A stretch of 64,000 nt of DNA from Gilvimarinus gilvus (GTDB lineage Bacteria > Pseudomonadota > Gammaproteobacteria > Pseudomonadales > Cellvibrionaceae). Position numbers and translations under genes: made by a program. The stretch covers positions 248,001 to 312,000 of the forward strand of contig NZ_JAULRU010000418.1 of NCBI RefSeq assembly GCF_030518155.1, read 5' to 3'. The number at the start of each line of letters is the position of its first letter. Within the stretch, counting starts at the first letter, position 1. Positions 16,352 to 32,668 of the stretch are shown here, piece by piece. The notes below the pieces were generated by a model. That model made no database searches, had not been told where the DNA came from, and saw nothing but the letters and a program-made list of their open reading frames with translations.

Positions 16352-16605
16352 CTAGCAGGCTGTTGACAAACCCCAAGCGTACTCAGGCTTTCAGGCTGGT
16401 TCGTAATCTAGGTGGCCTTTTGACCGTGTGTGTCCACTCATCGAAAAAGGGCAACGACGAGTGGGGCCAGCCTGAAAGCCCCGGAGGGCGTGGCCTGAAG
16501 CGCACATCTACTGCGCCTTGCCTCTAGCAAAGGGAACCACCCTGTCCGTCGAGACAAGGCACAACATCTGCACACTTCAGGCTACGCTGAGCATGCATGG
16601 GGGTT
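16352..16605 (-). repeat. Dispersed structured element, copy 1 (MITE-like, right end lost)
   Basis: About 254 bp are closely similar (roughly 15-20 mismatches by eye over about 225 bp) to 31528-31797, in the same orientation. The left end reads CTAGCAGGCTGTTGACAAAC, matching the terminal repeat of copy 2. The right terminal repeat is not recognisable, the similarity fading at about 16605, only 15 bp before the pyrD stop. Internal stems are GGCTTTCAGGCTGG (16386-16399) with a perfect complement at 16467-16480, GCCTGAAG (16493-16500) with CTTCAGGC (16575-16582), and GCCTTG (16515-16520) with CAAGGC (16555-16560) nested inside. Short open frames across it look accidental. The strand given is the one on which both copies keep pairing. 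Confidence 0.8.
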
Positions 16606-16619
16606 AGTATCTCAGCTCG

Positions 16620-17639
16620 TCATCCCAACTCTGCTAACACATCGGCACATTCTTTAACCAGACTTGGGCCGCGATAGATAAACCCCGAATAGACTTGTAT
16701 CAGACTGGCGCCGGCATCGATTTTTTCCATAGCGGCGGCACCGCTATCAATTCCACCCACGCCGATAATAGGAAGCCGGCCCTGTAAAACCTCGGCAAGT
16801 TGCTTAATTACCTGGGTGCTTTTATCCCGCACTGGAGATCCACTCAAGCCTCCAGCTTCTTCGTGCTGCGCATCGGCCTCAACGCCTTCTCGTCCGATGG
16901 TTGTATTGGTTGCGATAACACCATCCAAACCTATAGCAACCAGTGTTTCAGCTACCTCCTTGATGGCATTTTCATCCATGTCGGGAGCAATTTTCACCAC
17001 AACCGGCACGTATTTACCATGCATCTCAGCGAGGTCTTTCTGTTGTTTTTTTATACCGCTTAACAGAGCGGTTAAACTTTCGCCAAATTGTAGGTTACGC
17101 AACCCAGGAGTGTTGGGCGAAGACACATTGACGGTAATGTAATCGGCGTACAAGTACACCTTTTGCATACAGATACGGTAATCTTCCAGGGCGTTCTCGA
17201 CCGGCGTTTTAGCATTTTTACCAATATTAATCCCCAAAATACCGTTGTAGGTGCGTTTTTTAACCTGTTCGACAAGATGCTCCACGCCTTTATTATTAAA
17301 TCCCATGCGGTTAATGATGGCATTATGCCCCTCCAAGCGAAAAAGGCGCGGCTTTGGATTACCCGGCTGTGCGACCGGTGTGATTGTGCCTATTTCTACG
17401 AACCCAAACCCCAGCGAGCCCAGCGCGTTAAAATAGTCACCGTTCTTATCGAGACCAGCCGCCAACCCCACCGGGTTGGGAAACTTCAAACCCATTACCT
17501 CCACCGGATTATCTTGTACCGACTTAGCCAATAAGCCGGTCACTTTCAATCTGTGCGCGGCCCCCAGACATTCAAGACTGATCTCATGAGAGGATTCAGG
17601 GTTTAGGGCAAACAGTACTTTTCTTATGGCTGAATACAT
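16620..17639 (-). CDS. pyrD: Dihydroorotate dehydrogenase (quinone), class 2
   Basis: Fourth step of de novo pyrimidine synthesis: oxidises dihydroorotate to orotate with FMN and passes electrons to membrane quinone. Class 2 is shown by the N-terminal amphipathic region (MYSAIRKVLFALNPESSHE) that binds the membrane, the GLAAGLDKNGD and EIGTITPVAQPGNPKPR segments, the catalytic-serine region NVSSPNTPGLRNLQ, and the C-terminal phosphate-binding GVGGIDSG and IQVYSGFIYRGP. The ATG at 17639 fits the E. coli N terminus; an in-frame TTG five codons upstream lacks a ribosome site. The product is 339 residues. The dispersed element lies just beyond the stop. Confidence 0.96.
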   Translation of the reverse strand: MYSAIRKVLFALNPESSHEISLECLGAAHRLKVTGLLAKSVQDNPVEVMGLKFPNPVGLAAGLDKNGDYFNALGSLGFGFVEIGTITPVAQPGNPKPRLFRLEGHNAIINRMGFNNKGVEHLVEQVKKRTYNGILGINIGKNAKTPVENALEDYRICMQKVYLYADYITVNVSSPNTPGLRNLQFGESLTALLSGIKKQQKDLAEMHGKYVPVVVKIAPDMDENAIKEVAETLVAIGLDGVIATNTTIGREGVEADAQHEEAGGLSGSPVRDKSTQVIKQLAEVLQGRLPIIGVGGIDSGAAAMEKIDAGASLIQVYSGFIYRGPSLVKECADVLAELG

Positions 17640-17696
17640 AAATTGGCTCAACAATGGGAGATAAATAATCAGCCGTAAAGGATACTGAAAATAGCG

Positions 17697-17921
17697 TTAA
17701 AGGTCGATCCGATCAATACGGCAAAAGCGATTCTCGTCGTCGAATAGGATGCGAAAACGTCCCTTTATACCTGTGCGACTCACATAGGGTCTCAGTATGC
17801 TGGCGGGAAAGCGAACTCTACGGCCATCTATGGTCTGCGCTATCACGTTAGCAGCACTACCCTGATACCAAAGCTCAAATTTGTCCGCTGCAATGGTTAA
17901 ATCGACAATAACCGCTTTCAA
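17697..17921 (-). CDS. DUF2835 family protein
   Basis: A 74-residue protein that matches my memory of the small gammaproteobacterial family DUF2835, including the typical segment YQGSAANVIAQTIDGRRVRFPASILRPYV split here over residues 19-47 and the following RFRILFDDENRFCRIDRI. Its function is unknown. No signal peptide or membrane span is seen, so it is presumably cytoplasmic. It lies 57 bp upstream of the pyrD start on the same strand and may share its transcript. Confidence 0.75.
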   Translation of the reverse strand: MKAVIVDLTIAADKFELWYQGSAANVIAQTIDGRRVRFPASILRPYVSRTGIKGRFRILFDDENRFCRIDRIDL

Positions 17922-17984
17922 CGTAATTACCTTGATGTAACGAATCTAAAGGCAATATATCAAAAATACTTTGCCAACAGGCTG

Positions 17985-19442
17985 TCATTGACTGTGGCAT
18001 ATGTACTTGATTGCCTGGTATTCGGCTATGCCCTGACGACCACCCTCCCGACCAAAGCCAGAGTGACCTATACCCCCAAACGGTGCCATCGCATTGGAAA
18101 TAGCGCCTTCGTTCACACCGACCATGCCAGCGCGCAAGGCCTTACTCACTCTCAACACCCGACTGGCGTCAGTGCTGTAGAAATAACTGGCAAGACCGTA
18201 TGCCGTATTATTTGCAAGCTCGATTGCCTCCGCCTCTGAGTCAAAGGTCTTGATCGCCACAAATGGCCCAAAGGTTTCTTCCTGCCAGCACTTCATGTCC
18301 GTTGAAATACCCGTAACTATGACCGGCGCAACCCGGTTGTCTGCTAAGCATCCTGGTCGCTCTCCAAGCACACACTGACCACCTTTTTGCAGAGCATCAT
18401 CGAAGTGCTGCCGAACCTTCGCTACTGCGTTATCGTTAATCAAAGAGCAAAGCTGTACACCTTCAGCGAACCCATCTCCTATTTTTAACCTATTCAATGC
18501 CTCACTTAACAAATCGGCAAACTTATTATGGACACCAGATTGGATTAGAAATCGATTAGGGCAAATACACGTTTGCCCTGCGTTGCGAAACTTAGAAGCA
18601 ATGGCGCCCTCTACGGCTTTTTGCAAATCCGCATCATCAAAGACGATAAAAGGGGCGTTACCGCCCAGCTCTAGTGAAAGCTTTTGCAAGTTTGCACTAC
18701 ACTGCGCCATAAGCTTACGCCCAACACCCGTTGAGCCGGTAAAACTGAGTTTTTTCACCAGTGGAGAACCGGCTACGGCCTCACCTATCATGGAGGAATC
18801 CCCAGTAATGACACTAAAAACTCCACTCGGCACTCCCGCTTGCTGTGCGAGCACACCGAGTGCAAGCGCACTAAACGGCGTTAAGCCGGACGGTTTAACA
18901 ACCATCGAGCAGCCAGCTGCTAAGGCCGCACCGGCTTTACGCGTAATCATGGCCGCTGGAAAGTTCCAGGGAGTGATTGCAACACTGACACCAACAGGCT
19001 CCGGAACTGCCAGCAACTGCTGATGCTGACGCTGCGCGGGTATAACTTCGCCGTGACAGCGGCGGGCTTCTTCCGAGAACCATGCGACAAACGAAGCCGC
19101 ATAATCGACCTCAGCGCGCGCCTCAGCCAGTGGCTTTCCCTGCTCTAAGGTCATAATCGTGGCCAGATCTTCCTTATTAGCCAACATCAAATCATACCAA
19201 CGGCGCAAAATTGAGGATCTTTCATCTGGAGAACGCAAACGCCAATCCTCAAAGCCCGCCTGAGCACCGATCAACGCAGCCTCAACTTGCTCTGGCTCTA
19301 ATGATGGAACGCTTCCAACAACATCCCCGGTGGCGGGGTTATGAACAATAATTGTATTTTCACCTGACACGCCAACCCAGCGACCAGACAATAAACATTT
19401 ATCAGTCCACAAGGTAGGATTTTTCAAATTGATCTTTCGCAT
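17985..19442 (-). CDS. gabD: NAD(P)-dependent succinate-semialdehyde dehydrogenase
   Basis: Aldehyde dehydrogenase of 485 residues, the GabD length. It oxidises succinate semialdehyde to succinate, the last step of GABA breakdown. Catalytic residues are in place: N160 in TPWNFP, E258 in LELGGNAP and C292 in AGQTCICPNR. The cofactor loop FTGSTGVGRKL (about 234-244) is present. GabD is the best fit because of the CICPNR context and overall sequence, though other semialdehydes are possible substrates. It begins 30 bp after the glutamate dehydrogenase stop on the same strand, which suggests a shared transcript for glutamate and GABA catabolism. Confidence 0.88.
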   Translation of the reverse strand: MRKINLKNPTLWTDKCLLSGRWVGVSGENTIIVHNPATGDVVGSVPSLEPEQVEAALIGAQAGFEDWRLRSPDERSSILRRWYDLMLANKEDLATIMTLEQGKPLAEARAEVDYAASFVAWFSEEARRCHGEVIPAQRQHQQLLAVPEPVGVSVAITPWNFPAAMITRKAGAALAAGCSMVVKPSGLTPFSALALGVLAQQAGVPSGVFSVITGDSSMIGEAVAGSPLVKKLSFTGSTGVGRKLMAQCSANLQKLSLELGGNAPFIVFDDADLQKAVEGAIASKFRNAGQTCICPNRFLIQSGVHNKFADLLSEALNRLKIGDGFAEGVQLCSLINDNAVAKVRQHFDDALQKGGQCVLGERPGCLADNRVAPVIVTGISTDMKCWQEETFGPFVAIKTFDSEAEAIELANNTAYGLASYFYSTDASRVLRVSKALRAGMVGVNEGAISNAMAPFGGIGHSGFGREGGRQGIAEYQAIKYICHSQ

Positions 19443-19472
19443 AAAAAACCTGACAATCCGAACAGTTAATCT

Positions 19473-22400
19473 CTATGAGGTTACTTGAGCATGGCGGGTT
19501 ACCTGCGCGAGATCGAGCAGTTCTCGCAACGCAACCGAAAACATTGCGTAGTCGGTCGTGGTCGTCGTCTGAGCCTGATTCACCATACTTAACCAGCGGT
19601 TCAGCAGCAGTGACTGCTCTTGCGCCCATGTTTCGATCGTATCATCTATTGTCTTCGACACGAGACCTGCGCTCAAAGATTGAGTAATACTGCGCACCTG
19701 CGACTCCAGATCATCCATATACGCCTCGCGAGCCATCGCCTGCCAATAGTTTTCAACGCGGGCATCACTCAGTTGCACAGCGAACCCGCTTAAGTTCAGG
19801 CGGTTCACGAGACCTGCGTATAGCTTTGCCACGGTCATGACAGAGACTCCGGTCTGTACCGACACATCAACTACTCCTAAACCTGAATATAGGTACCCAG
19901 GAGAAACAACTTTTTGACAAAGCTGTTCCGGCACGCCCTGCTCGACGAACACCTGCAAATGACTGTGCCAATCTTGCACACTTTGACCACTTAAATTTTC
20001 CGCGAATACTTGCTGAATATCCTCAAGAGGCTCGCAAAATCGATTTAACTCGAGGGACAAATCAAGCTCTCCCCGTCTGTTTCGCAAAAACCACCGCGTC
20101 ATCCTCCGCACCCGCCGCATAAGATGCTGCATTAATTCTTGCTGAAGACCTTCTTCGACTGAAAAACTAAGGGCCTCGATAGCCGACCAAAGCGAAGCGA
20201 TATTCCCGACTCGCTTTGCCAAATAATACGCCTTTGCGACAGTAACCACACTGACGCCGGCAGCGTCTTGCATACGCTGCACAAAAGTACAGCCCTGTGT
20301 GTTTACAATATCGTTTGCCAGTTGAGTAGCAATTATTTCTTTGCGTAACGCATGCTTGCGCAAAACATCGGGGTAGCGCGCGCGCATTGTTTCTGGAAAT
20401 GCCAGCAAGCACAGCTCAGACAGCTCGACATCGCCACTGATCTCCTCTTTCGCCAGGTCCTCTTTCAAACCTACCTTTGCATAGGACAGAAGAACGGAAA
20501 GCTCTGGCCTGGTCAGCCCTGTGCCTTGCACCTGCCGTTCAAGAATTTGTTCGTCATCCGGCAAAAACTCCAGTGTTCGATTTAAGCGACCGGAAGACTC
20601 CAGTGAATGAATAAACCGCAACGTTTCCGCAATACGTAGGTGATTATCCCGGCTGGCTAGGCTCAGTGCCTGGGACTGCCGGTAGTTATTGTGTAAAACG
20701 TCAGCAGATACTTCGTCTGTCATTTCCACCAGTAAAGCATTGCGCTGATCAGCGGTTAACTCTTCATTTTTCACCAACTGAGATAATGCAATTTTGACAT
20801 TCACCTCGTGATCTGAGCAGTCGACTCCTGCCGAGTTATCAATAAAGTCCGTGTTACATGCCCCACCATTCAAACAAAATTCTACGCGCCCCATCTGGGT
20901 CATGCCGAGGTTGCCGCCTTCTCCAAACACTTTACAACGTAAATCTTGGCCATTGACGCGAAGCATATCATTGGCCTTATCGCCTACTTGGGCATGATTT
21001 TCAGTACTGGCTTTAACGTAAGTGCCAATACCTCCATTCCAAATCAAATCAACCGGCGCCATAAGCAGAAGGTGGATCAGCTCAGCCGGAGCAAGTTTGG
21101 TCTCATTAATACCTAAGGCAGATTTTGCTTCAGAAGACAAGGTAATAGATTTGGCTGAGCGCTCGTACACCCCTCCCCCCTGGCTGATCAAACCGGCGCT
21201 GTAGTCACTCCACTGCGCACCGGGCGTAGAGAACAGGCGTTTGCGCTCTGCGAAACTCTTCGCTTGATCGGGATTCGGGTCAATAAATATGTGCAGATGA
21301 TTAAACGCAGCCACGAGCTTAATTGACTCCGAACAAAGCATGCCATTACCAAAAACGTCGCCCGCCATATCACCCACACCGACAACAGTAATCGGATCAT
21401 TTTGTACATCTATGCCCTGCTCTTTAAAATGCCTTTGCACACAAACCCAGGCACCTTTTGCCGTAATACCCATGGCTTTATGATCGTAACCCTGACTACC
21501 GCCGGACGCGAAAGCATCCCCCAACCAAAACCCAGCCTTGAGAGCAACATCGTTGGCAATATCCGAAAAAGTTGCCGTACCCTTGTCGGCAGCGACCACA
21601 AGGTACGGATCATTGTCGTCTTTGCTAAGGACATGGACAGGGGACACGATCTCATCGTTTTCAACGTTATCCGCAACTGACAAAAGCGCATCGATAAACA
21701 GGCGGTAACATTGTTTACCTTCGGCAAACTTCTCCTCCCGCGACAAGTTAGCCGCTTGCTTACACACAAACCCACCTTTAGCACCATTGGGCACGATGAC
21801 GGCATTTTTTACTTGCTGAGCTTTGACCAGCCCCAGCACTTCGGTGCGATAGTCCTGTGGTCTATCTGACCACCGAAGTCCACCTCGGGCCACCTTACCA
21901 CCGCGAAGGTGCACACCTTCGAAGCGGTTAGAATACACATACATTTCAAACATTGGCTTAGGCTCGGGAATGCCAGATAGTGACCGAGGCATTAACTTCA
22001 GGGCTAAATATTCGTTAATATCCGCTTTAAAATAGTTTGTGCGAACTGTTGCCTTCATCAAGTTCAAATACTGTCTAATTATTTTATCTTCGCTCAAGCT
22101 TTGAACCGACTCCAATTCGCCTTCTATATCCTTTATGCACTGAGATTCTAAAACTTGATTCGCCTTTTCAGGCGAAAACCGAAGATGAAACAGTTCGACA
22201 AGCTTTTGCGCAAGATGCGATTGATTGATTAGCGCTTCGGCGACATACTCAAACGAATACCCAAACAGTATTTGTTGCATATAGTTAGCGTAGGCTCGCA
22301 GCGTTATCACATCGCGCCAACCAATTCCGGCAGATAGCGTCAACCGGCCAAAAATATCACTTTCTGAATACCCCTCCCAAATGGCAAAAAATGCCTGTTT

Positions 22401-24275
22401 GAGCGCATCCTGAACATCGTCATTCGGCAGGTCATCGAGCATCGCTGGCTGCAGTATAAAATCGTGCAACCAAACTACCTCATCATTTTTACTGATCAGC
22501 TTGTAGGGGTACTCAGACAGCACTCGCAAACCAAAATTTTCAAGCAGCGGGATAATATCTGACAACGCTAAGGGTTCCGCAAGGTTATAAAGCTTTAAGC
22601 GTAAACGACCCGACGTTTGATCTACAGATATATCCATCCATAGTGGTGTCTTGCTCATTTGCTCCAGAATGGCGATGTCCTTGCATGCATCGATTTCACT
22701 AAAGGATTCCTGATACGCCGGGCCGAACGTATCCGCATAGGAGTTCACAAGGTGACGCGACTGCTCCTCATCATACTCGCGACGCAATTCAACCAACAAT
22801 TTATCTTGCCAGCTTCGCACCATCGCCTCTACTTCGCGCTCAAGAAAAACAGGCTCTACGTCTGACGGAACATTGACACCAACCCGGAAAACGAAATGAA
22901 CTCTAGCCAACAGGGATTCGGAAAAGAAGGTATTAAATTCCTCATCCAGCGCACCCACCTGCTTGCCGATATACGTCTGCATACGTTGGCGCACTTGCGT
23001 CGAAAACAGTTCCCTCGGCACGTATACCAAACAACTTACAAATTTCCCAAATCGATCTTTGCGCAGGAACAGCCGAACTTTATAGCGCTCATTGATCTCT
23101 AGTATGCCGCGAACCACATCATACAGTTCTGCTGCACTGGACTGGAAAAGCTCGTCGCGCGGAAAGGTCTCGACGACCTGCTCCATCGCTTTACCTTCGT
23201 GGCTCCAGGGCGTCAGCCCCATCCTCTCATACAGGTAGGCGACCTTTTCGCGAATCAGAGGAATACTCGCTGGCGATTCACTGTACACCGATGACGTATA
23301 AAGACCTAAAAATCGACACTCCCCAATAACTTTACCTGCATCATCATATCGTTTCACCACAACATAGTCGGGGTATGCACTGCGGTGAATTCTGGAGCGC
23401 TGAGGCGACTTCGAAAAGGCGACTGACGATGGTGACAAATAAAACCGGGCGACCCCTGGATGCGCATCATCGAGCACTTTTATTTTGATTTTTCCACCGC
23501 TGTCAAACAATCCCAGCCGCTTGTCTCTGTTTTCGACCAAGACTTCTTTTCCCTGACGACTTTCCAGATTAAATTCCGAATAACCAAGAAACGTAAAATG
23601 ATCGTCAGCTAACCAGTTCAGAAACTCTCTGGCTTCATCGACATCAATGCACTCCACGCTGCTTTTCGTCGAGCCTAGCCTCTGTGCGCAATCAAGCATG
23701 GCTTGCCTTAGTGCGGGAAAGCCTGTGACCACCTTATCGATTTGCTCCAGAACTTCGGTCAGCGCCAGACTTATTTCCCGCAACTTGCGCGCGTCTCCTA
23801 ACCTGCCGACCTCCATGTAGATCAGAGCCTCCGCATGATTATTACGCTTGGAGATACCCTCAATGGAAACCAGATCTCCGTCTTTGCGCACCGGAAGGTA
23901 AGGCGTACTCTTAATACTGTATATTGGAATATTACGATTAGCCAGCTCAATACGAATGGAATCGACCAAAAAAGGCATATCAGCCTGTCGCACAGCAATG
24001 ACCGTAAAGGGACTTGACCACCCCAGACTGTCAACCCCGGGATTGACGACCTGCACTAATGGCAGATGTTGAGTGTTGTCCTTAATCATCCCCCACAGCC
24101 AACGCAGGCAGCCTGCAATGTCGCCCAACGGGCGGTCCACCAAATCCTCAAAGGGGAAGTGATGAAAAAATAACCTGACAAACTCTTCACTCAACGGGGC
24201 GTCTGAGCTGGGTTCTGCGGCAGCCACTTGCTCTGCGATGTAGTCGACGTCCAGTTTAAACACGGGCTTTTCCAT
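19473..24275 (-). CDS. gdhB: NAD-specific glutamate dehydrogenase, large 180-kDa class
   Basis: Very large GDH of 1600 residues, converting glutamate to 2-oxoglutarate and ammonia with NAD+; in Pseudomonas this class is allosterically activated by arginine. The catalytic domain lies in the centre: GGKVARGGLRWSDRPQDYRTEV (split at about 785-806), the VPNGAKGGFV lysine segment at about 830, and the nucleotide-binding VGVGDMAGDVFGNGML at about 970. The long N-terminal part carries ACT-like regulatory regions and the C-terminal part is helical. GGAG lies close before the ATG. The divergent moxR gene starts 177 bp away. gabD follows after 30 bp. Confidence 0.96.
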   Translation of the reverse strand: MEKPVFKLDVDYIAEQVAAAEPSSDAPLSEEFVRLFFHHFPFEDLVDRPLGDIAGCLRWLWGMIKDNTQHLPLVQVVNPGVDSLGWSSPFTVIAVRQADMPFLVDSIRIELANRNIPIYSIKSTPYLPVRKDGDLVSIEGISKRNNHAEALIYMEVGRLGDARKLREISLALTEVLEQIDKVVTGFPALRQAMLDCAQRLGSTKSSVECIDVDEAREFLNWLADDHFTFLGYSEFNLESRQGKEVLVENRDKRLGLFDSGGKIKIKVLDDAHPGVARFYLSPSSVAFSKSPQRSRIHRSAYPDYVVVKRYDDAGKVIGECRFLGLYTSSVYSESPASIPLIREKVAYLYERMGLTPWSHEGKAMEQVVETFPRDELFQSSAAELYDVVRGILEINERYKVRLFLRKDRFGKFVSCLVYVPRELFSTQVRQRMQTYIGKQVGALDEEFNTFFSESLLARVHFVFRVGVNVPSDVEPVFLEREVEAMVRSWQDKLLVELRREYDEEQSRHLVNSYADTFGPAYQESFSEIDACKDIAILEQMSKTPLWMDISVDQTSGRLRLKLYNLAEPLALSDIIPLLENFGLRVLSEYPYKLISKNDEVVWLHDFILQPAMLDDLPNDDVQDALKQAFFAIWEGYSESDIFGRLTLSAGIGWRDVITLRAYANYMQQILFGYSFEYVAEALINQSHLAQKLVELFHLRFSPEKANQVLESQCIKDIEGELESVQSLSEDKIIRQYLNLMKATVRTNYFKADINEYLALKLMPRSLSGIPEPKPMFEMYVYSNRFEGVHLRGGKVARGGLRWSDRPQDYRTEVLGLVKAQQVKNAVIVPNGAKGGFVCKQAANLSREEKFAEGKQCYRLFIDALLSVADNVENDEIVSPVHVLSKDDNDPYLVVAADKGTATFSDIANDVALKAGFWLGDAFASGGSQGYDHKAMGITAKGAWVCVQRHFKEQGIDVQNDPITVVGVGDMAGDVFGNGMLCSESIKLVAAFNHLHIFIDPNPDQAKSFAERKRLFSTPGAQWSDYSAGLISQGGGVYERSAKSITLSSEAKSALGINETKLAPAELIHLLLMAPVDLIWNGGIGTYVKASTENHAQVGDKANDMLRVNGQDLRCKVFGEGGNLGMTQMGRVEFCLNGGACNTDFIDNSAGVDCSDHEVNVKIALSQLVKNEELTADQRNALLVEMTDEVSADVLHNNYRQSQALSLASRDNHLRIAETLRFIHSLESSGRLNRTLEFLPDDEQILERQVQGTGLTRPELSVLLSYAKVGLKEDLAKEEISGDVELSELCLLAFPETMRARYPDVLRKHALRKEIIATQLANDIVNTQGCTFVQRMQDAAGVSVVTVAKAYYLAKRVGNIASLWSAIEALSFSVEEGLQQELMQHLMRRVRRMTRWFLRNRRGELDLSLELNRFCEPLEDIQQVFAENLSGQSVQDWHSHLQVFVEQGVPEQLCQKVVSPGYLYSGLGVVDVSVQTGVSVMTVAKLYAGLVNRLNLSGFAVQLSDARVENYWQAMAREAYMDDLESQVRSITQSLSAGLVSKTIDDTIETWAQEQSLLLNRWLSMVNQAQTTTTTDYAMFSVALRELLDLAQVTRHAQVTS

Positions 24276-24452
24276 TTCTCGCTCCAGTTACACTTACTAC
24301 TTAACACTAGGAAAATCTTATAAGCCACTGTAAGCCTAGACGAATTTTGTTAAAACCGTTGAAATTCGGGGAACTGCCTCCACATCGTCAGTGTCAGAAT
24401 CCGCGTTACGTTTACGGCTAAGATCGAACAAAAAACAACCAAGAGGCAACCA

Positions 24453-25412
24453 ATGCAATTACAGGAGCAATTTCAGTCACTTAGCGCTTGGCTGAACAAT
24501 CAGATTATTGGCCAGGAACACCTCGTACAACGCTTATTGATCACACTGCTCGCGGACGGACACCTCTTGGTGGAAGGCGCTCCCGGGCTTGCCAAGACAA
24601 AAGCCATTAAGACGTTGGCTGACGCCATTGAGGGCGACTACAATCGAATCCAGTTCACCCCCGACCTACTGCCCGCAGATGTGACAGGCACCGATATCTA
24701 TCGCCCCGAACAGGGCGTGTTTGAGTTTCAGCCTGGGCCAGTTTTTCACAACCTAGTCCTGGCCGACGAAATCAACAGAGCGCCCGCGAAAGTCCAATCG
24801 GCACTGCTAGAAGCCATGGCCGAAAGACAGGTGAGTGTCGGCAACTCGACTTACCCTCTGCCGCCCCTGTTTATGGTCATGGCGACACAGAACCCAATTG
24901 AGCAGGAAGGCACCTATCCTCTACCCGAGGCTCAGCTGGACCGGTTTTTGATGCACGTCAATGTCGATTACCCAAGTGTGGAAGCGGAACGACGGATTCT
25001 GGCACTGGTTCGCGCAGAAGCGAAACAGGAAGCGGCCGATCAAGTGCCGCCATTGACCCAAACGGCCCTTTTCGAGGCGCGCAAAGAGATTCTCGGCCTT
25101 CACATGAGTGATGCCGTTGAAGAGTATATTGTCCAACTGATCAATGCCACACGCCGCCCGGGGCTATACAGCGAAAGTCTTGCCGGTTTACTAGAATACG
25201 GCGCCAGCCCCCGAGGCACCATTGCGTTAGAGCGCTGTGCCCGCGCGCACGCTTGGTTAAACGGCAAAGACTTTGTCAGCCCAGACGATGTCGCCGCGGT
25301 CATACACGACTGCTTGCGTCATCGCCTAATACTCAGCTTTGAAGCCGAAGCCGACGGCACGACTCGCGACCAGACCATCGACCAACTACTGAAGACGGTA
25401 GCCATAGCGTAA
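24453..25412 (+). CDS. MoxR family AAA+ ATPase
   Basis: MoxR ATPase of 319 residues, thought to act as a chaperone for assembling or activating partner complexes with the von Willebrand factor A proteins encoded downstream. Walker A is GAPGLAKT (42-49), Walker B VLADEINRAP (about 104-113), and sensor 1 MATQNPIEQEGTYPLPEAQLDRF (split over about 150-170), typical for MoxR. AGAGG lies before the ATG. Its TAA shares one base with the ATG of the DUF58 gene (TAATG), so the two are translationally coupled. First gene of a six-gene operon. Confidence 0.94.
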   Translation: MQLQEQFQSLSAWLNNQIIGQEHLVQRLLITLLADGHLLVEGAPGLAKTKAIKTLADAIEGDYNRIQFTPDLLPADVTGTDIYRPEQGVFEFQPGPVFHNLVLADEINRAPAKVQSALLEAMAERQVSVGNSTYPLPPLFMVMATQNPIEQEGTYPLPEAQLDRFLMHVNVDYPSVEAERRILALVRAEAKQEAADQVPPLTQTALFEARKEILGLHMSDAVEEYIVQLINATRRPGLYSESLAGLLEYGASPRGTIALERCARAHAWLNGKDFVSPDDVAAVIHDCLRHRLILSFEAEADGTTRDQTIDQLLKTVAIA

Positions 25413-26368
25413 TGTCTATCAACCAGGCTAACCAAAACGGCCACGGTGCTTATTGCTCAGTCAGTGGATTACTGCGCGAGCGATTTAACAGTCGCGACCT
25501 AAAACTGTTTGCCCCTCACCCCGTTAGAAGTGCGCAAACTGGGAGATTTAGAACGCGCTTTCGCGGCCGAGGCGTCGACTTTGAAGAGGTTAGGCTCTAT
25601 CAGGCGGGAGATGATATCCGTTCTATCGACTGGCGTGTTACGGCACGAACCCAAGTACCCCACACCAAACTCTACAGTGAAGAACGTGAGCGTCCGGTGT
25701 ACCTATTGTGCGATCAACGCTCTTGTCAATTCTTCGGCAGCGTTCAACATTTTAAGTCAACGCTTGCCTGCCACATTGCCAGCTGTATCGGCTGGGCGGC
25801 ACTATCGTCCGGGGACCGGGTTGGCTCACTGGTGTTTGGGGACCACGATTTTCACGACAGTAGACCGAAGCGGAGTAAACATGCCGTTTTACAAATGATC
25901 CATCTACTGGAGCAATACAACCGAGCGTTGACCTCGCCAATCTCAGATGCACAATCCGTCTCCTTGGCCCAGATATTGAGCGACGGCAGGCGGATTGCCA
26001 AGCCGGGCTCCGCTTTGTTTGTCATCAGCGATTTCAGTGATTTAGACAGCGCCGCTGAAAAAGAGCTTTTTCACATGAGTCGGCACCTCGACGTTACACT
26101 CATTCAGGTGTTCGATCCACTTGAACGCCAGTTGGCAAGCCGAACCGCTCTTGCTATTAGCGACGGCGATCAACGCAAACTACTGCCCGTGCATCAAAAA
26201 AATTTCCAGCAGGCGTTCGAATCGTTGGCGCAACGCAAGCAACAACAACTCACTGACGTTTGCACCCGCCTACAAATTGAGCTACTGCCTATTTCAACGG
26301 CCGATGACTATGTAAAATTATTGCGTCAACGCTTTACCGCCTCGCCACGCATGGCAAGGAGGCGCTAA
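25412..26368 (+). CDS. DUF58 domain protein
   Basis: Protein of 318 residues with the DUF58 signature SIDWRVTARTQVPHTKLYSEERE (split; about residues 71-93) followed by a von Willebrand A-like fold (VYLLCDQRSCQFFGS, then FVISDFSDLD). These proteins almost always sit beside MoxR and are believed to be partners or substrates in the complex. No membrane span is seen, unlike many DUF58 relatives. It overlaps the moxR stop by one base and is followed 3 bp later by the DUF4381 gene. Confidence 0.88.
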   Translation: MSINQANQNGHGAYCSVSGLLRERFNSRDLKLFAPHPVRSAQTGRFRTRFRGRGVDFEEVRLYQAGDDIRSIDWRVTARTQVPHTKLYSEERERPVYLLCDQRSCQFFGSVQHFKSTLACHIASCIGWAALSSGDRVGSLVFGDHDFHDSRPKRSKHAVLQMIHLLEQYNRALTSPISDAQSVSLAQILSDGRRIAKPGSALFVISDFSDLDSAAEKELFHMSRHLDVTLIQVFDPLERQLASRTALAISDGDQRKLLPVHQKNFQQAFESLAQRKQQQLTDVCTRLQIELLPISTADDYVKLLRQRFTASPRMARRR

Positions 26369-26371
26369 AGT

Positions 26372-26848
26372 ATGGATCCACTCGCTCAACTCAATGACAT
26401 TCATATCCCCGAACCTGTCAGCTGGTGGCCACTGGCGCCTTTGTGGTGGGTTATTATCACTGTGATTGTCGGTTTATGTGTTCTGGCTGCGTGGTTAGCG
26501 TTGCGACTCTATCGACGCAACGCCTATCGTCGTCAAGCATTACAGCAACTCAACCAGTTGGCAGGCGAATCAGTCACCCCAGGCGATATCAACCGAATAT
26601 TGAAATCCGTCGCTATCACCGCGTATGGTAAGCGCGCCTGCGCCAGCCTGTACGGCCAAGCGTGGTTGGATTTTTTAGTCAGTAAAGCGCCCAGAATACA
26701 ACCTCATCTGGCAACTCCAGCGGGTCAGGTTTTGGGAGGGGACAGCTACCGAGCCCATCCCCATTGCGACCCGCAGGTGTTACTTATCGCGGCCAGACTT
26801 TGGATTAAACAGCATAAATCATCCACCTCGGAGTTAGCCTATGTTTGA
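26372..26848 (+). CDS. DUF4381 family membrane protein
   Basis: Protein of 158 residues with one N-terminal membrane span (about 20-46, WWPLAPLWWVIITVIVGLCV and beyond) and a cytoplasmic C-terminal region. The opening PLAQLNDIHIPEPVSWWPLAPLWW is the recognisable hallmark of DUF4381, a family nearly confined to moxR-bat operons. The function is unknown; it may anchor the complex. It overlaps the next gene by 8 bp, indicating coupling. Confidence 0.85.
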   Translation: MDPLAQLNDIHIPEPVSWWPLAPLWWVIITVIVGLCVLAAWLALRLYRRNAYRRQALQQLNQLAGESVTPGDINRILKSVAITAYGKRACASLYGQAWLDFLVSKAPRIQPHLATPAGQVLGGDSYRAHPHCDPQVLLIAARLWIKQHKSSTSELAYV

Positions 26849-27863
26849 GCTAGCTTACCCCTGGTTACTGTTGTTACTGCCTGTCCCTCTCGCAATGCGT
26901 TGGATAAAGCCCGCAGCATCGGCCATCAGCGCGATTAAAGTACCCTTTTTTCAACAGCTCAGCCAATTGCCAATAGCAAAGCAGACTGGGCATAAATCGA
27001 ACGCTACATTAGGCGTATTATGGTGTCTTTGGGCGTTGCTCGTAATCGCCGCCAGTGATCCTCTTTGGGTGGGCAAACCCACCGGAGTGCCATACTCAGG
27101 GCGTGATATGGTCTTGGCCGTCGACCTATCGCAAAGCATGCTGACGCCAGATATGCAGCCACCGGGCGTGGTCACGATGCAGTTTCAAAACAGCGAAAAC
27201 TACAACCGGCTCGACGCGGTCAAAGCCGTTGTCGGCGATTTCATCGAACGCCGCACCGGCGACCGCATGGGGCTTATTCTGTTTGCCGACCAAGCGTACT
27301 TGCAGGCCCCCCTCAGTCACGACATGGTCACTGTTAATCAACTGCTACAGGAGGCTGAAGTAGGTTTTGCTGGCAGAGCCACAGCCATTGGCGATGCGCT
27401 GGGCCTTGCGATTAAGCGCTTGCAGGAACGCCCCGAAGGCAGTCGGCGTATAATTTTGCTCAGCGATGGCGCCAACACGGCCGGCGAAACTAACCCATTA
27501 GACGCGGCTAGCGTCGCCGCCAACATGGGCGTTAAAATCTATACCATCGCTTTCGGCTCAACCGAAAATATTCGCGGCACGACACGGCAAAGAGTTACCA
27601 ATGAAGTTGACACCGAGACCCTGCAGCGTATTGCCAGTACCACCGATGGTGAATTTTTTCGCGCCGAATCTACCAAGGAGCTGGAACAGGTACATGAGCA
27701 ACTCGATCAGCTAGAACCACTGGAGCTAGACGAACTAACCGTGCGCCCCGTTTTGCGTTTATTCTTTTGGCCGCTGGGCTTGGCACTTATATTATCGTGG
27801 GGCCTAGCCCTTAGCAAAATACATTGGCAAAGCCTCTTGGAACGAAAGGAGAAAGAAGTTTGA
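26841..27863 (+). CDS. batA: Von Willebrand factor A membrane protein, BatA-like
   Basis: 340 residues with a VWA domain (about 85-290) between membrane segments near residues 1-20, 50-72 and 305-325. The metal-ion adhesion site is intact: DLSQS (DxSxS), a threonine in GRATAIGDAL, and the aspartate in LLSDGANT. BatA-type proteins are tied to aerotolerance and envelope stress from work in Bacteroides, although the mechanism is unsettled. It overlaps the gene before (8 bp), and its TGA stop overlaps the likely TTG start of the next gene. Confidence 0.87.
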   Translation: MFELAYPWLLLLLPVPLAMRWIKPAASAISAIKVPFFQQLSQLPIAKQTGHKSNATLGVLWCLWALLVIAASDPLWVGKPTGVPYSGRDMVLAVDLSQSMLTPDMQPPGVVTMQFQNSENYNRLDAVKAVVGDFIERRTGDRMGLILFADQAYLQAPLSHDMVTVNQLLQEAEVGFAGRATAIGDALGLAIKRLQERPEGSRRIILLSDGANTAGETNPLDAASVAANMGVKIYTIAFGSTENIRGTTRQRVTNEVDTETLQRIASTTDGEFFRAESTKELEQVHEQLDQLEPLELDELTVRPVLRLFFWPLGLALILSWGLALSKIHWQSLLERKEKEV

Positions 27864-29791
27864 ACCTTCTCGCTGACTTTCACTTGCTGCGTCCCTTGGC
27901 ATTGCTCGCCCTGTTACCGCTGCTTTTGGCATTTATTGGTGTCTGGCTCAGTAAGCGTACAGGAAGTGGCTGGCAGCATTTCATTGCGGCCAACCTTTTA
28001 CCTTATTTAAGCGAAAACAAAATCAATACAGGCTCCCGGGTGATGTTGTCTAGCCTGGGACTATTTTGGCTGTTGGGCTGTATCGCGTTAGCCGGGCCAA
28101 CATGGCAACAAGCACCCAGTGAGGTCCACCAGAACACGGACGCGCTCGTGGTAATGCTCGATTTATCCCCCTCCATGGTAGGCAATGATGTAAAACCTTC
28201 GCGGCTCATACGAGCGCGGTTAAAAATTGCGGAACTGTTGAAACAACGCAACGAAGGAGATACTGCGCTCATAGCCTATGCCGACCAGGCACATGTCGTT
28301 ACGCCGCTTACCGAGGACACAGAAACGATTGCTGCACTGTTACCGGCCCTGCACCCCCGAATGATGCCGGCAGCAGGCAGCCGGGTTGAAACAGCGATAG
28401 ACCGCGCCGTAAAAATGCTTAGCGATGCCGGCTACAGCGCGGGCAGCTTACTACTGATTACCGATGGAGTTGCGCAGACAGCCGAAACGGCTATAACCAA
28501 TTCTCTGGCAAACGAAAACTACCGTCTGTCCATTCTCGGCATCGGCTCCGATAAACCCGTGCCGATTCCGGCGGGCAACGGTGGTTTCATGCGGGACAGC
28601 CAAGGCAATGTCATTACTACATCGCTACACAGTGGTCGCTTACAACGCTTAGCACGAACCACAGGCGGCCGCTATGCAACGGCAACCTTTAACACCTCGG
28701 ACCTGGAATACTTGCTTGCACCCAAACTGGATTTATCACTCGATCAGCACCGGCTCTCCGACAATAAAATGGATACCTGGCTCGACCGAGGACCGTGGTT
28801 AGTTTTGGCCATGTTACCTCTGGCTTTGTTGGCATTTCGTAGGGGTGTTCTGGTTTTGCTGCTGATTACAACGACCTGTTTGCTCGAGGTCCCGACCGTA
28901 CAGGCGGCCCCTTCTCTGGCCGACAATTTATTGTTAACCCCAAACCAGCGGGGCGCAAAAGCTTTGGCCAACGATCAGGCAGAACGAGCTGCGCAAGAGT
29001 TTACTGACCCGGCTTGGCGCGGAACCGCACAGTATCGAGCCGGCCAGTACGAACAAGCAGCACAAACCTTTGCCACGCTCGATACCGCCCAAGCGCACTA
29101 CAACCGGGGCAACGCTTTAGCACAACAAGGCAAGCTCGACGAGGCATCTGCCGCGTACGATAAAGCACTGCAATTGCAACCCGATATGCAAGACGCGGCC
29201 GCGAACAAAGCACTTGTCGAGCAACTCAAACAGCAGCAACAGCAGCAGAATAACCAAGAGTCTTCCGAACAGAACGACAGTGATCAGGCAGATCAAGATA
29301 AAAAACAGCAACAAAACCAGCCGTCAACCGGCCAGAGCTCTAGCGGCAATGAGGAGACGGAAAACAATCAGAATCAGGGGCAACAAAACAGCAGCAGTGC
29401 TGCTGGCAACCAGCCACAAGATGACAACCAGCCCAGCGCCAGCCAGCAAGAACAAGGACAAAGTTCTAGCAGCTCGGGAAACCAACAAGAGCGAGCCCAG
29501 GCAAGCGACGCGTCATCGAGCGAGGCACAAACCGCCGAGCAACAACAGGCTTCGCTTGACAGAGAAAAAGAAAACGATCAAACCCAAGAGCAGCAGCTCG
29601 CTGAGCTCGAGCAACCAATGACAGCAGAAGAACAAGAAAAGCGTCAAGCACAAGAACAATGGTTGAGAAAAATCCCCGACGACCCCTCTGGGTTACTGCG
29701 CAATAAATTTCAACATGAATACCGAAAAAACCGCATTGAGCGTCAATTTCAAGGGCTTAATGATTTTGGCAATGAGGAACAACGCTGGTAA
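27860..29791 (+). CDS. batB: VWA-TPR membrane protein (BatB-BatC fusion) with Gln/Ser/Asn-rich tail
   Basis: About 643 residues. The N-terminal BatB part has membrane segments, a VWA domain with DLSPS (DxSxS) and ITDGVAQT, and a hydrophobic segment near residues 300-345. The BatC part has TPR repeats (AHYNRGNALAQQGKLDEASAAYDKAL..., about 410-460), followed by a tail of about 170 residues dominated by Q, N, S, E and D. I chose TTG at 27860 because AAGGAG lies 8 bases upstream and it overlaps the batA TGA (TTGA). An earlier in-frame TTG at 27824 lacks a ribosome site. BatB and BatC are separate genes in some bacteria and fused here. Confidence 0.87.
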   Translation: MNLLADFHLLRPLALLALLPLLLAFIGVWLSKRTGSGWQHFIAANLLPYLSENKINTGSRVMLSSLGLFWLLGCIALAGPTWQQAPSEVHQNTDALVVMLDLSPSMVGNDVKPSRLIRARLKIAELLKQRNEGDTALIAYADQAHVVTPLTEDTETIAALLPALHPRMMPAAGSRVETAIDRAVKMLSDAGYSAGSLLLITDGVAQTAETAITNSLANENYRLSILGIGSDKPVPIPAGNGGFMRDSQGNVITTSLHSGRLQRLARTTGGRYATATFNTSDLEYLLAPKLDLSLDQHRLSDNKMDTWLDRGPWLVLAMLPLALLAFRRGVLVLLLITTTCLLEVPTVQAAPSLADNLLLTPNQRGAKALANDQAERAAQEFTDPAWRGTAQYRAGQYEQAAQTFATLDTAQAHYNRGNALAQQGKLDEASAAYDKALQLQPDMQDAAANKALVEQLKQQQQQQNNQESSEQNDSDQADQDKKQQQNQPSTGQSSSGNEETENNQNQGQQNSSSAAGNQPQDDNQPSASQQEQGQSSSSSGNQQERAQASDASSSEAQTAEQQQASLDREKENDQTQEQQLAELEQPMTAEEQEKRQAQEQWLRKIPDDPSGLLRNKFQHEYRKNRIERQFQGLNDFGNEEQRW

Positions 29792-29795
29792 GGCT

Positions 29796-31508
29796 ATGAT
29801 AAAACAAGAGCTAATCACATGGGCACGGGCCTTTATTCGACTCGCAGGTTGTGGACTGGCAGGGTTGACGCTTGTACTTTTTGCCGCAACAGCACATTCG
29901 GCGAACTTTACCGCTGAAGCCGCCCGTACCAACATAAATATCAATGACCAACTGGAAGTCACCTTTCGGCTTGAAAATGGCCCTGTCGATTCTGGCATCG
30001 ATTTATCACCTGCACAGTCTGACTTTGAAATTTTAAACATTGAACGTCATGTCGAATCCTACACAGTAAACTGGGAAAAGAGTACATTTGTCGTCTGGCG
30101 CGCCACCTTGGCACCGAAGCGTTTAGGTCAGCTAACAATACCCGCTATAAATGTAGCAGGACAGCAATCAAACCCCATTACAATTAATGTGGCTGAACCA
30201 CCTACGTCGGCAGCAGACCCCAACGCGGAAACTTTTCTCGAAGTAACAGCGGACAAAACAAGTGTTTATGTACAACAACAAATTTTACTGACCGCCAGGC
30301 TCTATTCGAAATACGCCTGGACGGGCAAAGAAATTAAAGATTTTGCACTCAATAATGCTTTAATTGAAGCGGTCAGTGAAGACGAATATATTACGGAGCT
30401 AGACGGAACCAAGCATCTGGTGTACGAAGTGACTTTCGCGCTCTATCCACAATCAAGCGGCACATTTGAAATACCAGGCTTTGACTACGCAGTCCAGCTT
30501 CGCTCCGGTTCATCACGCAGCTTGCTGAACCTTAACAATGGGCCTATTCGCCGGGGTAAAAGCCAACCGCTTTCTATTGAGGTAAAAAGTATTCCCGCCA
30601 GTAACGGCACTGGCGCATGGCTCCCTGCCAGCAAGGTTGAACTGAGCCAACACTTCAGTCGTTCGCCTGACGACTTAGTTGCGGGTGAGCCCGTTACCCG
30701 CCGCATAACCATTAACGCCCAAGGACTACACCCGACACAAATACCCCCCATTGAATTTGACGATATAGAAGGTTTTAGTGTCTACCGTGACAAAGCCCAG
30801 ACCGACGAAACAAGAAGCGGTAGCGGTATTAATGCCAGCCGTATTGAAACTCTCGCCATGGTTCCCAATCAAGCGGGTAGATCTCGCCTGCCACCACTCA
30901 CCTTGCGCTGGTACAACACATTAACCAACAGCTATGAGACAGCGACTTTGCCCGCCGTAGACGTTGTCGCAACGGCCCCCACAGGGAGTACGGCCACCTC
31001 AAACGACATAGCTGCGCCACCGCCTCAGCAAATTATAGATGCAGCAGGTAGCAAGGTTCGAATTGAGGAGAAAATCCCACTTTGGCTCATAGTCAGCCAA
31101 GTCTGCACACTCTTACTGGTCGCCGTTCTTTTACCATTGGCCTTACGCAAAAACTCACCGAAAGCGAACACCCAGGTAAGCGCTGACTCGGCGACAACCA
31201 AAGCGACATGGCAGACGCTAAAATCCGCCGCTACGCAAGATGATTTACGAGCACTGAGACAGGCAATTATCGCTTGGGCAAATGAAAAATTGCAGCATCC
31301 GATTAATAGCTTGAGTGGTATAAAACCCTATTTGTCCACCACTGAAGCCGAAGATCAACTAGACCTTCTTGAGCGCGCCTTATACAGCAAACAAACAACC
31401 AAGGTCGATACCACACTGTTGCTTAGGGATTTAAAGGCGTTACCAGACAAGGGCGCCACATCAAAGAATCTGAGCGGTTTACAAACTCTATACCCTAAAG
31501 AAAGCTAA
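29796..31508 (+). CDS. batD: BatD-like protein
   Basis: About 570 residues: signal peptide (hydrophobic stretch LAGCGLAGLTLVLFAATAHSA), a long beta-rich extracytoplasmic region beginning NFTAEAARTNININDQLEVTF, and a membrane span near residues 450-470 (LWLIVSQVCTLLLVAVLLPLAL) with a cytoplasmic tail of about 100 residues. This order is typical of BatD. ATG 29796 is preferred because it gives a compact signal peptide; ATGs at 29760 and 29772 are also in frame but would overlap the previous gene. Last gene of the moxR-bat operon; copy 2 of the dispersed element begins 20 bp after the stop. Confidence 0.85.
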   Translation: MIKQELITWARAFIRLAGCGLAGLTLVLFAATAHSANFTAEAARTNININDQLEVTFRLENGPVDSGIDLSPAQSDFEILNIERHVESYTVNWEKSTFVVWRATLAPKRLGQLTIPAINVAGQQSNPITINVAEPPTSAADPNAETFLEVTADKTSVYVQQQILLTARLYSKYAWTGKEIKDFALNNALIEAVSEDEYITELDGTKHLVYEVTFALYPQSSGTFEIPGFDYAVQLRSGSSRSLLNLNNGPIRRGKSQPLSIEVKSIPASNGTGAWLPASKVELSQHFSRSPDDLVAGEPVTRRITINAQGLHPTQIPPIEFDDIEGFSVYRDKAQTDETRSGSGINASRIETLAMVPNQAGRSRLPPLTLRWYNTLTNSYETATLPAVDVVATAPTGSTATSNDIAAPPPQQIIDAAGSKVRIEEKIPLWLIVSQVCTLLLVAVLLPLALRKNSPKANTQVSADSATTKATWQTLKSAATQDDLRALRQAIIAWANEKLQHPINSLSGIKPYLSTTEAEDQLDLLERALYSKQTTKVDTTLLLRDLKALPDKGATSKNLSGLQTLYPKES

Positions 31509-31527
31509 GGAATCTCTGATTAGGTCT

Positions 31528-31797
31528 CTAGCTGGCTGTTGAAAAACCCTTACGTACTCAGACTCTCAGGCTGGTTCGTAATCTAGGCGTCCTTTTGACC
31601 GTGTGTGTCCACCCATCGAAAAAGGGCAACGACGAGTACGGGCCAGCCTGAAAGTCCCGCAGGGCGTGGCCTGATACGCACATCTGCTGCGCCTTGCCTC
31701 TAGCAAAGGGAACCACCCTGTCCGTCGAGACAAGACACAACATCTGCACGCTTCAGACTACGCTGAGCATGCATGGGGTTTTTCAACAGACTGCTAG
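31528..31797 (-). repeat. Dispersed structured element, copy 2 (complete, MITE-like)
   Basis: A 270-bp element with 22-bp imperfect terminal inverted repeats at 31528-31549 and 31776-31797 (20 of 22 positions match; core CTGTTGAAAAACCC). Both ends start with CTAG, which may be part of the element or a duplicated target. Internal stems are 31561-31574 with 31643-31656 (14 bp, one imperfect pair), GCCTGA (31669-31674) with TCAGAC (31753-31758), and GCCTTG (31691-31696) with CAAGAC (31731-31736). It encodes no convincing protein. It lies between the converging ends of batD and the AsmA-like gene. Confidence 0.82.
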
Positions 31798-31859
31798 GGG
31801 GAGATTGGGCCGTGCCCGCCCAGCGGGGTTTACAGAGGCCGCTGGAGACTTGATCTGAG

Positions 31860-31901
31860 GTTCCTAAAACCCCTAATGCCGAACAAGCAAGCATTAGGGG
31901 T
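31860..31901 (-). terminator. Intrinsic terminator of the AsmA-like gene
   Basis: Read on the minus strand, ACCCCTAATGC (31901-31891) and GCATTAGGGGT (31879-31869) form a perfect 11-bp stem with an 11-base loop, followed by TTTT (31868-31865). It begins 12 bases after the stop of the AsmA-like gene. The stem could also act in the other direction, but there is no U-tract on the plus strand. Confidence 0.75.
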
Positions 31902-31912
31902 GAACTTCACAG

Positions 31913-32668
31913 CTATTGTCGCTCTAACAGTTGTTGAACATCTTTCAACTGTTCCGCGTCTTCTTCTGATAGGTTATCTTGCAACAAATTGTTTATTTCG
32001 CTACCCGCTTTTTCGCGCAGCAAGTTCGTCACGTGATCCGCAACAGGCTGGAATATCTCAGCGGCGAGCTCTTTAGCCGTCACCCCACCTTCTCGATCGC
32101 CCAGGTTCTCCCGAACAATATCGTTCAGCTGATAGGTCTTTTGCTCCATCAGAGGAGAAATGATTTCGGTGGTAACATTAGTAAACGCCAAACGTCGAAT
32201 AACGAATTTTGGCTCAGCGCCAGCGCCTTGCGCAGGTTCGGTACTGTTTGCGCCATCAACTTTATGCACAGCCAAACGTTCATGCAACTCCTGCAAATTG
32301 GTATGGCCATCGGCCAACTGCTCCATGGTCAGTTGTAGTCCGTCAATCAAGATTTCATCGAATACGATGATGTTTGATTCAAGGCTCGAGGGGTCAATAT
32401 CGACCGCCACTTGATTCAAAGTGAAAAGCGTAGGCTCGCTAAACCCAGAAAAATTCTCAATGCTAAAGCCGTGTAATTCCGCCCTTGCTTCACTCAGGGT
32501 GAAGTTAGCGCTGTCTAGTGTAACTGGCGTTTGTAACAGTTCAGTCCCGACAGATTCAATGGTTGTTGCTACAAAGCCGTCTATATTCTTGTAAACCCAG
32601 TAAGAACAGCCACCGATTATTAAAACCAGCACTAATAATATAATCAGTAAAACCTTTAGTACCTTCAT
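31913..32668 (-). CDS. AsmA-like envelope protein, short
   Basis: 251 residues with an N-terminal membrane anchor (MKVLKVLLIILLVLVLIIGG, about 1-25) followed by a region that resembles AsmA/DUF748 proteins: GTELLQTPVTLDSANFTLSEARAELHGFSIENFSGF and then VDIDPSSL and LIDGLQLTMEQ. Family members are large inner-membrane-anchored proteins linked to phospholipid or outer-membrane homeostasis; this one is much shorter. The C-terminal 60 residues are acidic and helical. It is probably periplasmic. The family call is by eye and moderate. Confidence 0.6.
   Translation of the reverse strand: MKVLKVLLIILLVLVLIIGGCSYWVYKNIDGFVATTIESVGTELLQTPVTLDSANFTLSEARAELHGFSIENFSGFSEPTLFTLNQVAVDIDPSSLESNIIVFDEILIDGLQLTMEQLADGHTNLQELHERLAVHKVDGANSTEPAQGAGAEPKFVIRRLAFTNVTTEIISPLMEQKTYQLNDIVRENLGDREGGVTAKELAAEIFQPVADHVTNLLREKAGSEINNLLQDNLSEEDAEQLKDVQQLLERQ

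Follow-up and report, generated by a model that had tools for sequence, protein, structure and literature searches.

A 64,000-nucleotide stretch of the Gilvimarinus gilvus genome (contig NZ_JAULRU010000418.1, positions 248,001 to 312,000; hereafter the window, to whose first letter window positions refer) carries two copies of a short non-coding element, at 16352-16605 (copy 1) and 31528-31797 (copy 2). The best combined explanation, to which we give a probability of about 0.72, is that the copies are an IS5-type miniature inverted-repeat transposable element (MITE) containing an inverted pair of hairpins whose fold has been under selection. Taken separately, the assignment to a non-autonomous IS5-type MITE of about 262 bp is very probable, and selection on the interior fold is only slightly less so. 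An initial annotation, made from the sequence of the window alone, had proposed a MITE-like element moved by a transposase encoded elsewhere, with a structured RNA as the alternative. The first proposal was borne out by dispersed copies, inverted ends, CTAG-like flanks, a gene split by one copy and intact in 7 of 7 congeners, and matching IS5-type ends in relatives, which together identify the copies as IS5-type MITEs. Beyond that annotation, we found that the interior is an inverted hairpin pair and that it recurs behind other ends.

Structure of the element in the window

Copy 2 is complete, with its interior enclosed by inverted 18-bp terminal repeats and, outside these, by CTAG on both sides. 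The left flank CTAG (31528-31531) is followed by the left terminal inverted repeat CTGGCTGTTGAAAAACCC (31532-31549, + strand), hairpin B (31558-31653, + strand, boundaries set by eye), a short core hairpin CCC-UGC-GGG (31656-31664, - strand), hairpin A (about 31666-31767), the right terminal inverted repeat (31776-31793, - strand) and the right flank CTAG (31794-31797). Hairpin B carries the motif AGGCG ... CAACG in its own sense and is degenerate in this lineage. The covariance model R1, described below, matched copy 2 on the - strand at 31645-31767 (127.8 bits), a segment that takes in hairpin A, the core hairpin and the foot of hairpin B. Copy 1 lies in the same orientation and was 92% identical to copy 2 over query positions 1-254. 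Its left CTAG (16352-16355) and left terminal inverted repeat CAGGCTGTTGACAAACCC (16356-16373, + strand) are intact over 16352-16373 and are followed by hairpin B (16382-16477, + strand, boundaries set by eye), the core hairpin CCC-UCC-GGG (16480-16488, - strand) and an R1 match to hairpin A and the core on the - strand (16469-16591, 131.9 bits). The right repeat of copy 1 is gone after about 16605; a remnant remains in its place (16592-16605, - strand), and the end test found no right end there. The terminal inverted arms of copy 2, measured as 22 nt, were 91% complementary and spaced by 226 nt, with CTAG at their outer ends. Thus, the two similar copies in one orientation and the 22-nt inverted repeats ending in CTAG were correctly described in the initial annotation.

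That annotation had also seen no convincing coding frame, and no open reading frame (ORF) of at least 80 amino acids was found in either window copy. A degraded gene or gene fragment in several copies would be compatible with the substitutions and small insertions and deletions by which the copies differ. This explanation has a vanishingly small probability in view of the lacking frame, the sharpness of the inverted ends and the covariation of the stems shown below.

Read on the - strand, the interior of copy 2 comprises hairpin A (about 100 nt), the short CCC-UNC-GGG hairpin and hairpin B, with paired ends enclosing all of them, and the overall shape is predicted to be a four-way junction. 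The interior is therefore built of two hairpins of about 100 nt, inverted to each other, on either side of the short core hairpin. The predicted RNA fold of copy 2 reached -139.9 kcal/mol on the - strand (shuffled sequences, -90.0 ± 5.3 kcal/mol) and -116.4 kcal/mol on the + strand.

Copies and movement in the genome

The source assembly is fragmented (4.78 Mb in 852 contigs). The genome holds not two copies but 40 matches of at least 135 bases, along with 9 short single-end ones, and 28 matches span at least 250 of the 270 query bases. Eight of these longer matches are at the edge of a contig, so that a split copy may have been counted twice; conversely, the count may be too low, as the scoring covered 40 of 95 first-look candidates. 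With at most one mismatch allowed, the 16-base end occurred 48 and 42 times genome-wide, compared with 1 and 0 occurrences of a reversed control pattern. Ends and flanks were examined in 30 copies (24 from this genome and 6 from three congeners). Both ends were recognisable within 4 mismatches in 28 of them, the exceptions being copy 1 of the window (L012) and L023, and the length without flanks was 250-264 bp. CTAG stood on the left in 20 copies and on the right in 16; by eye, other element families showed the direct flanks CTAA (L200) and CTTG (L049).

Movement of the element is well supported. The firmest evidence is a DUF3465 gene split by one copy (L004) into parts covering residues 1-107 and 102-158, which runs intact across the insertion point in all 7 of 7 congeners (12 of 58 genomes match, this one included), an uninterrupted site of the kind that the initial annotation had suggested comparing. 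When the element and one 4-mer were removed from a second locus (L016), a frame with a Pfam methyltransferase domain spanning the junction was obtained; since the excised length is divisible by three, it is the domain and not the frame that carries the argument. The same operation at a congener locus (L033) gave a frame with a Pfam esterase domain across the junction. An empty site was also sought for copy 2 in congeners, where its flanks gave distant matches only. Stem-loop-replacing transposition, as excerpts of a report on IS1272 describe it (PMC5678879), was not adopted because the uninterrupted gene fits plain insertion.

Both window copies sit between converging genes, as annotated. Among the 24 copies of this genome, however, the ORF-based setting was converging in 7, tandem in 12 and divergent in 5, so that a general preference for converging genes was rejected and the setting of the window copies is accidental.

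Reduced forms are also present in this genome. Two end-only forms of about 44 bp were found (L089 and L091), of which L089 has TTAA on both sides, and in three single-hairpin copies (L028, L095 and L098) a shortened end is joined to the core hairpin at the same junction. This junction reflects either a half-size subfamily that is itself mobile or deletions that recurred at a TGAAA microhomology. A 1.17-kb stretch between matching ends (L087) was considered as an autonomous copy and rejected, no intact transposase being seen. At that locus (1238-2424, contig C257), a RAYT-like remnant frame, identified by eye, and a further inverted repeat GGGGACAGTTTACTTAA lie between the element ends. A pair of ends 5.7 kb apart (L088) was rejected as a single element, with other genes lying in between. 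At the end of contig C264 (L069), an element end is followed by a tandem GGGTTAT repeat. No match was obtained in BLAST searches of plasmids with four elements and of phages with one element, or in an exact pattern search of viral contigs.

Transposases with matching ends

In another genus of the family, a 1283-bp insertion sequence (L163) has ends consisting of ctag followed by CAGGCTGTTGAAAAAACAC and ctag followed by CAGGCTGTTGAAAAACCCC, which differ from the element ends at 0 and 2 of 18 positions. Its 282-amino-acid frame scored as an IS5-family transposase above the NCBIfam cut-off (182.7 vs. 140 bits); it spans only model positions 3-211 of 285 and may therefore be incomplete. The ends of L160, from the same genus, and of L159 showed 2 and 4 mismatches in 18 to the element ends, and L160 belongs to the IS1182 family according to NCBIfam (486.6 vs. 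270 bits). A DUF772 gene was present in 16 of 40 other hairpin-bearing genomes, and the loci fetched had ends like those of the local element in 4 of these 16. The agreement was 16/16 bases in G241 (one end), 14/16 in G288 and 13/16 at the insertion-sequence ends in G029 and G050, a level at which, by our estimate, about 30 loci would yield an occasional match by chance. A further 13/16 match in G351 had no TA-type flank beside it and was left uncounted. The hairpin was absent from all 44 DUF772 insertion-sequence loci scanned (7 + 37; 58 were fetched). For some families, the matching ends thus support IS5-type transposases as the movers, and for the rest, such transposases are presumed.

The genome of G. 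gilvus itself has two DDE_Tnp_1 matches, on contigs C464 and C160. The C464 gene was rejected as the mover as its ends differ from those of the element. The one end read at C160, GAGACTGTAGAAAAAC, has 3 mismatches in 16 and is flanked by GGCGTT, not CTAG, which makes this gene an unlikely mover. Three DDE insertion sequences of a congener (L123, L124 and L128 in G005) have GAGGCTGTAGAAAAAC-like ends, which resemble CAGGCTGTTGAAAAAC of the element, and flanks GGCGTT/TAACG, not CTAG.

It could be supposed instead that the element is REPIN-like: a RAYT-type (Y1/HUH) transposase would recognise the hairpins as its units in single-stranded DNA, and the outer repeats would be incidental. In line with this, the hairpins form inverted, strand-specific pairs like the inverted REP doublets that make up REPINs (PMC3116915), the copy number is high, and the four elements tested gave no plasmid match and the one tested gave no phage match. 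However, the ends are IS5-type, the flanks are CTAG-like, and the units are about 100 nt vs. 20-40 nt. Moreover, R1 had no match in the loci surrounding the two Y1_Tnp matches of this genome, and one RAYT query found no match in 159 loci. Taken together, this explanation is distinctly improbable. A RAYT gene lying next to a GGAACCTCTGA end (L105) was rejected as a partner, the end being a single stray one without the hairpin. This Y1_Tnp gene (1001-1940, contig C157) lies between inverted GGTCAGGCCTTACATTT repeats that are unrelated to the element.

Recurrence of the interior behind other ends

The same interior behind other ends was first met by BLAST within the family and order, and an exact-pattern search also found it in two metagenome-assembled genomes, an Alcanivorax and a Pseudomonadales bacterium. 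The covariance model R1 (123 positions, 30 pairs) was built from 23 founder sequences (set A2), which had been collected by BLAST or pattern and are mostly copies of this genus; matches were accepted at E values up to 1e-4. R1 matched 56 of 369 genomes of the class, corresponding to 46 of 272 genera, and most of the listed matches were full length. In the phylum, 29 of 398 genomes matched, and 11 of these belong to a single family that lies outside the class. In 18 of 68 loci, R1 matched hairpin A on one strand and hairpin B on the other, at a spacing of about 90 nt. The copies of this genus give no R1 match to hairpin B, which is too degenerate there, and the inverted homology of A and B is drawn from other lineages. 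By eye, at least eight kinds of ends enclose the interior, many of them, not all, with CTAG-like flanks: CAGGCTGTTGAAAAACCC, the GGAACCTCTG group, TACTCTTTCAAGG, GTGTACTGCGTCACTC, GTGTCCTGTCCCGTAG, TACCAATTCATATAA, GGAAGGTGCGAATAAGTCC and GCACTCTATCCATATG. We take the kind GGAAGGTGCGAATAAGTCC to resemble the end of IS5 itself.

Probable selection on the fold

Covariation was evaluated in an alignment of 49 hairpin A sequences (A4; lengths 116-125, median pairwise identity 0.55) made by MAFFT without structure. Pairing was retained in 93.9% of the cells, and both sides had changed in 32 of 38 pairs. Double-change cells numbered 467 against 131.9 ± 9.0 in shuffles, and the covariation was 0.697, as compared with 0.207 in shuffled alignments and 0.087-0.119 in slid controls. 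The letters of the internal loops, among them the AAG/AAC and GCA/AA loops, were conserved at the median pairwise identity of 0.55.

A strand test was then applied, in which pairs were picked by Watson-Crick letters alone, a strand-blind rule, and the exceptions were counted. Hairpin A had 146 G-U and 35 A-C exceptions, with a G-U majority in 25 pairs and an A-C majority in 6. Read in its proper sense on the opposite strand, hairpin B had 58 G-U and 19 A-C exceptions in the 18 model-found loci, where hairpin A gave 54:19. When hairpin B was located by position only, the exceptions were 51 G-U and 27 A-C, and the pairs were 22:6 (27 of 29 loci; L040 and L226 had no start, and L210 among the 27 is incomplete). 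Since G-U exceeded A-C in each hairpin's own sense, selection acted on the folded single strand. The lineages that spread would thus have been selected as folded single strands bearing two hairpins of opposite sense, as we read these sequences. The G-U bias alone does not distinguish RNA from single-stranded DNA, and RNA as the acting form is a tentative choice, rated a little below even.

The structured RNA raised by the initial annotation was retained in part: the fold covaries across genera, and the element is a structured nucleic acid as well as a MITE, not instead of one. A structured non-coding RNA or leader transcribed from one fixed strand and repeated by accident would agree with the covariation, with the better fold of the - strand (-139.9 vs. 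-116.4 kcal/mol) and with the core loop, which was UNC in 34 of 49 sequences and its complement GNA in 8 of 49. The orientation of the core loop is partly chosen by the model, and its UNC excess leans slightly to RNA. Against such an RNA, the senses of A and B lie on opposite strands, no promoter-like site was found on searching 31300-32000, the gene-splitting copies and inverted ends show movement, and Rfam gave no match over the element in this genome's own copies or in 17 loci (E up to 1; two matches fall outside the elements). We regard this explanation as highly improbable. A single - strand RNA spanning the entire element (RNAalifold, -82.6 vs. -60.8) was likewise set aside, because the fold favours G-U by choice and the senses of A and B are opposite. 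Elsewhere in the window, Rfam matched a t44 RNA (RF00127; 57818-57905, - strand; 67.3 bits, gathering threshold 44).

Several observations weigh against a mobile IS5-type element with a selected fold. The 4-bp flanks were identical in only 12 of 28 copies, and every one of these was CTAG; since CTAG is its own reverse complement, such flanks are equally compatible with a duplicated target and with an inverted repeat of greater length. The flanks TTAG/CTAA of one copy (L050) fit an inverted and not a direct repeat. An insertion sequence with the element's ends was sought in this genome and none was found; those with matching ends come from relatives (L163, L160 and L159). Among the fetched DUF772 loci, ends like those of the local element were lacking in 12 of the 16 other genomes (11 without any match). 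The hairpin A sense ran along the genes in 6 of the 12 copies between tandem genes (hand count), an even split that counts against an orientation-dependent RNA effect. The end-only and single-hairpin forms mean that the hairpins are dispensable for persistence. In A2, mostly sequences of this genus, the strand test gave 39 G-U and 38 A-C exceptions, without bias, which indicates that recent copies drift. Finally, 39 of the 49 A4 sequences were found by R1, which favours pairing; the argument from A4 is therefore one of effect size, not of p value.

Some of these observations would suit an ordinary MITE with an unselected filler interior, whose fold is a by-product of the inverted duplication of a palindrome. 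The drift of recent copies of the genus without strand bias (39:38), the persistence of forms with one hairpin or none, and the 44 scanned insertion-sequence loci, none of which needs the hairpin, all speak for it. It is weakened by the covariation result, in which 32 of 38 pairs changed on both sides and covariation was about 6 times that of the slid controls. The conserved internal-loop letters at a median identity of 0.55, the G-U bias in both hairpins and the occurrence of the same interior behind unrelated ends also stand against a filler, which we consider unlikely.

Comparison with known systems

No description of the element was found among the matches listed in the open-licence PMC literature. 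Most similar among known systems are MITEPsy1, REPINs and the CGTC-1 dimers of Halothiobacillus in IS5-like palindromes. MITEPsy1 of Pseudomonas syringae is IS5-type, was seen to move, and makes a 4-bp duplication at CTAG or YTAA (PMC3189936). Like the present element, it is short and non-coding, has 18-nt ends (GGAAGGTCTGAAAAAGCC) and is probably moved by an IS5-family transposase. It differs in its length of 100 nt, which leaves no room for two hairpins of about 100 nt, and in that well conserved copies were reported from one P. syringae group only, with similar sequences elsewhere (PMC3189936).

REPINs share the inverted hairpin pair and the high copy number, and their folding has been proposed to occur in single-stranded DNA or mRNA, but they consist of short REP units tied to RAYT genes (PMC3116915). 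The present element has units of about 100 nt, conserved internal loops and IS5-type ends, with no RAYT link seen (RAYT genes identified by family, in this genome). The element is a MITE whose interior is REPIN-like in architecture but, where tested, departs from REPINs in the size of its units and in showing no link to RAYT genes. The CGTC-1 REP dimers of Halothiobacillus neapolitanus are hairpin dimers enclosed by a 41-bp palindrome whose sequence, GGGaaGCTT-GAAAaACC, is similar to IS5-type ends (PMC3733652). They are reported from one genome, in one sentence, with 8-bp REP stems, and were not recognised there as a transposon; the likeness is one of description. QMITE1 and QMITE2 of Coxiella burnetii are likewise multi-copy structured MITEs, some of which are transcribed as small RNAs, but differ in size and in their direct repeats, and QMITE1 is reported to lack orthologues in other genomes (PMC5896051).

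Possible mode of action and implications

A fold kept across many bacterial groups suggests that the fold itself has some function. We hypothesise that the element is mobilised in trans by a DUF772/DDE transposase, through a cut-and-paste mechanism at YTAR sites like that reported for MITEPsy1, and that the acting form of either hairpin is a folded single strand to which a putative partner, probably of the host, binds. With the pair inverted, a sense hairpin would be available no matter which of the two strands is transcribed or becomes single-stranded, and the element would work in either insertion orientation; read-through RNA would be somewhat favoured over single-stranded DNA. Such an arrangement would suit an element whose landing site sets the direction of transcription or replication. 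In the widest form of this proposal, for which we see about even odds, the hairpin of about 100 nt would be an unrecognised functional nucleic-acid module, widespread in Gammaproteobacteria, also found beyond them and passed among many IS5-type MITE families that differ in their ends. Duplicated in inverted orientation, it would secure one working copy on whichever strand is used, and its conserved internal loops would bind a common host partner.

Bacterial MITEs are usually viewed as species-limited leftovers of insertion sequences, whereas here the interior fold outlasts the ends. A passive parasite would not be expected to show one hairpin combined with at least eight different kinds of ends and present in 46 of 272 sampled genera of the class. 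The motif, the covariance model and many loci are now at hand for seeking a host partner or a role at the RNA level.

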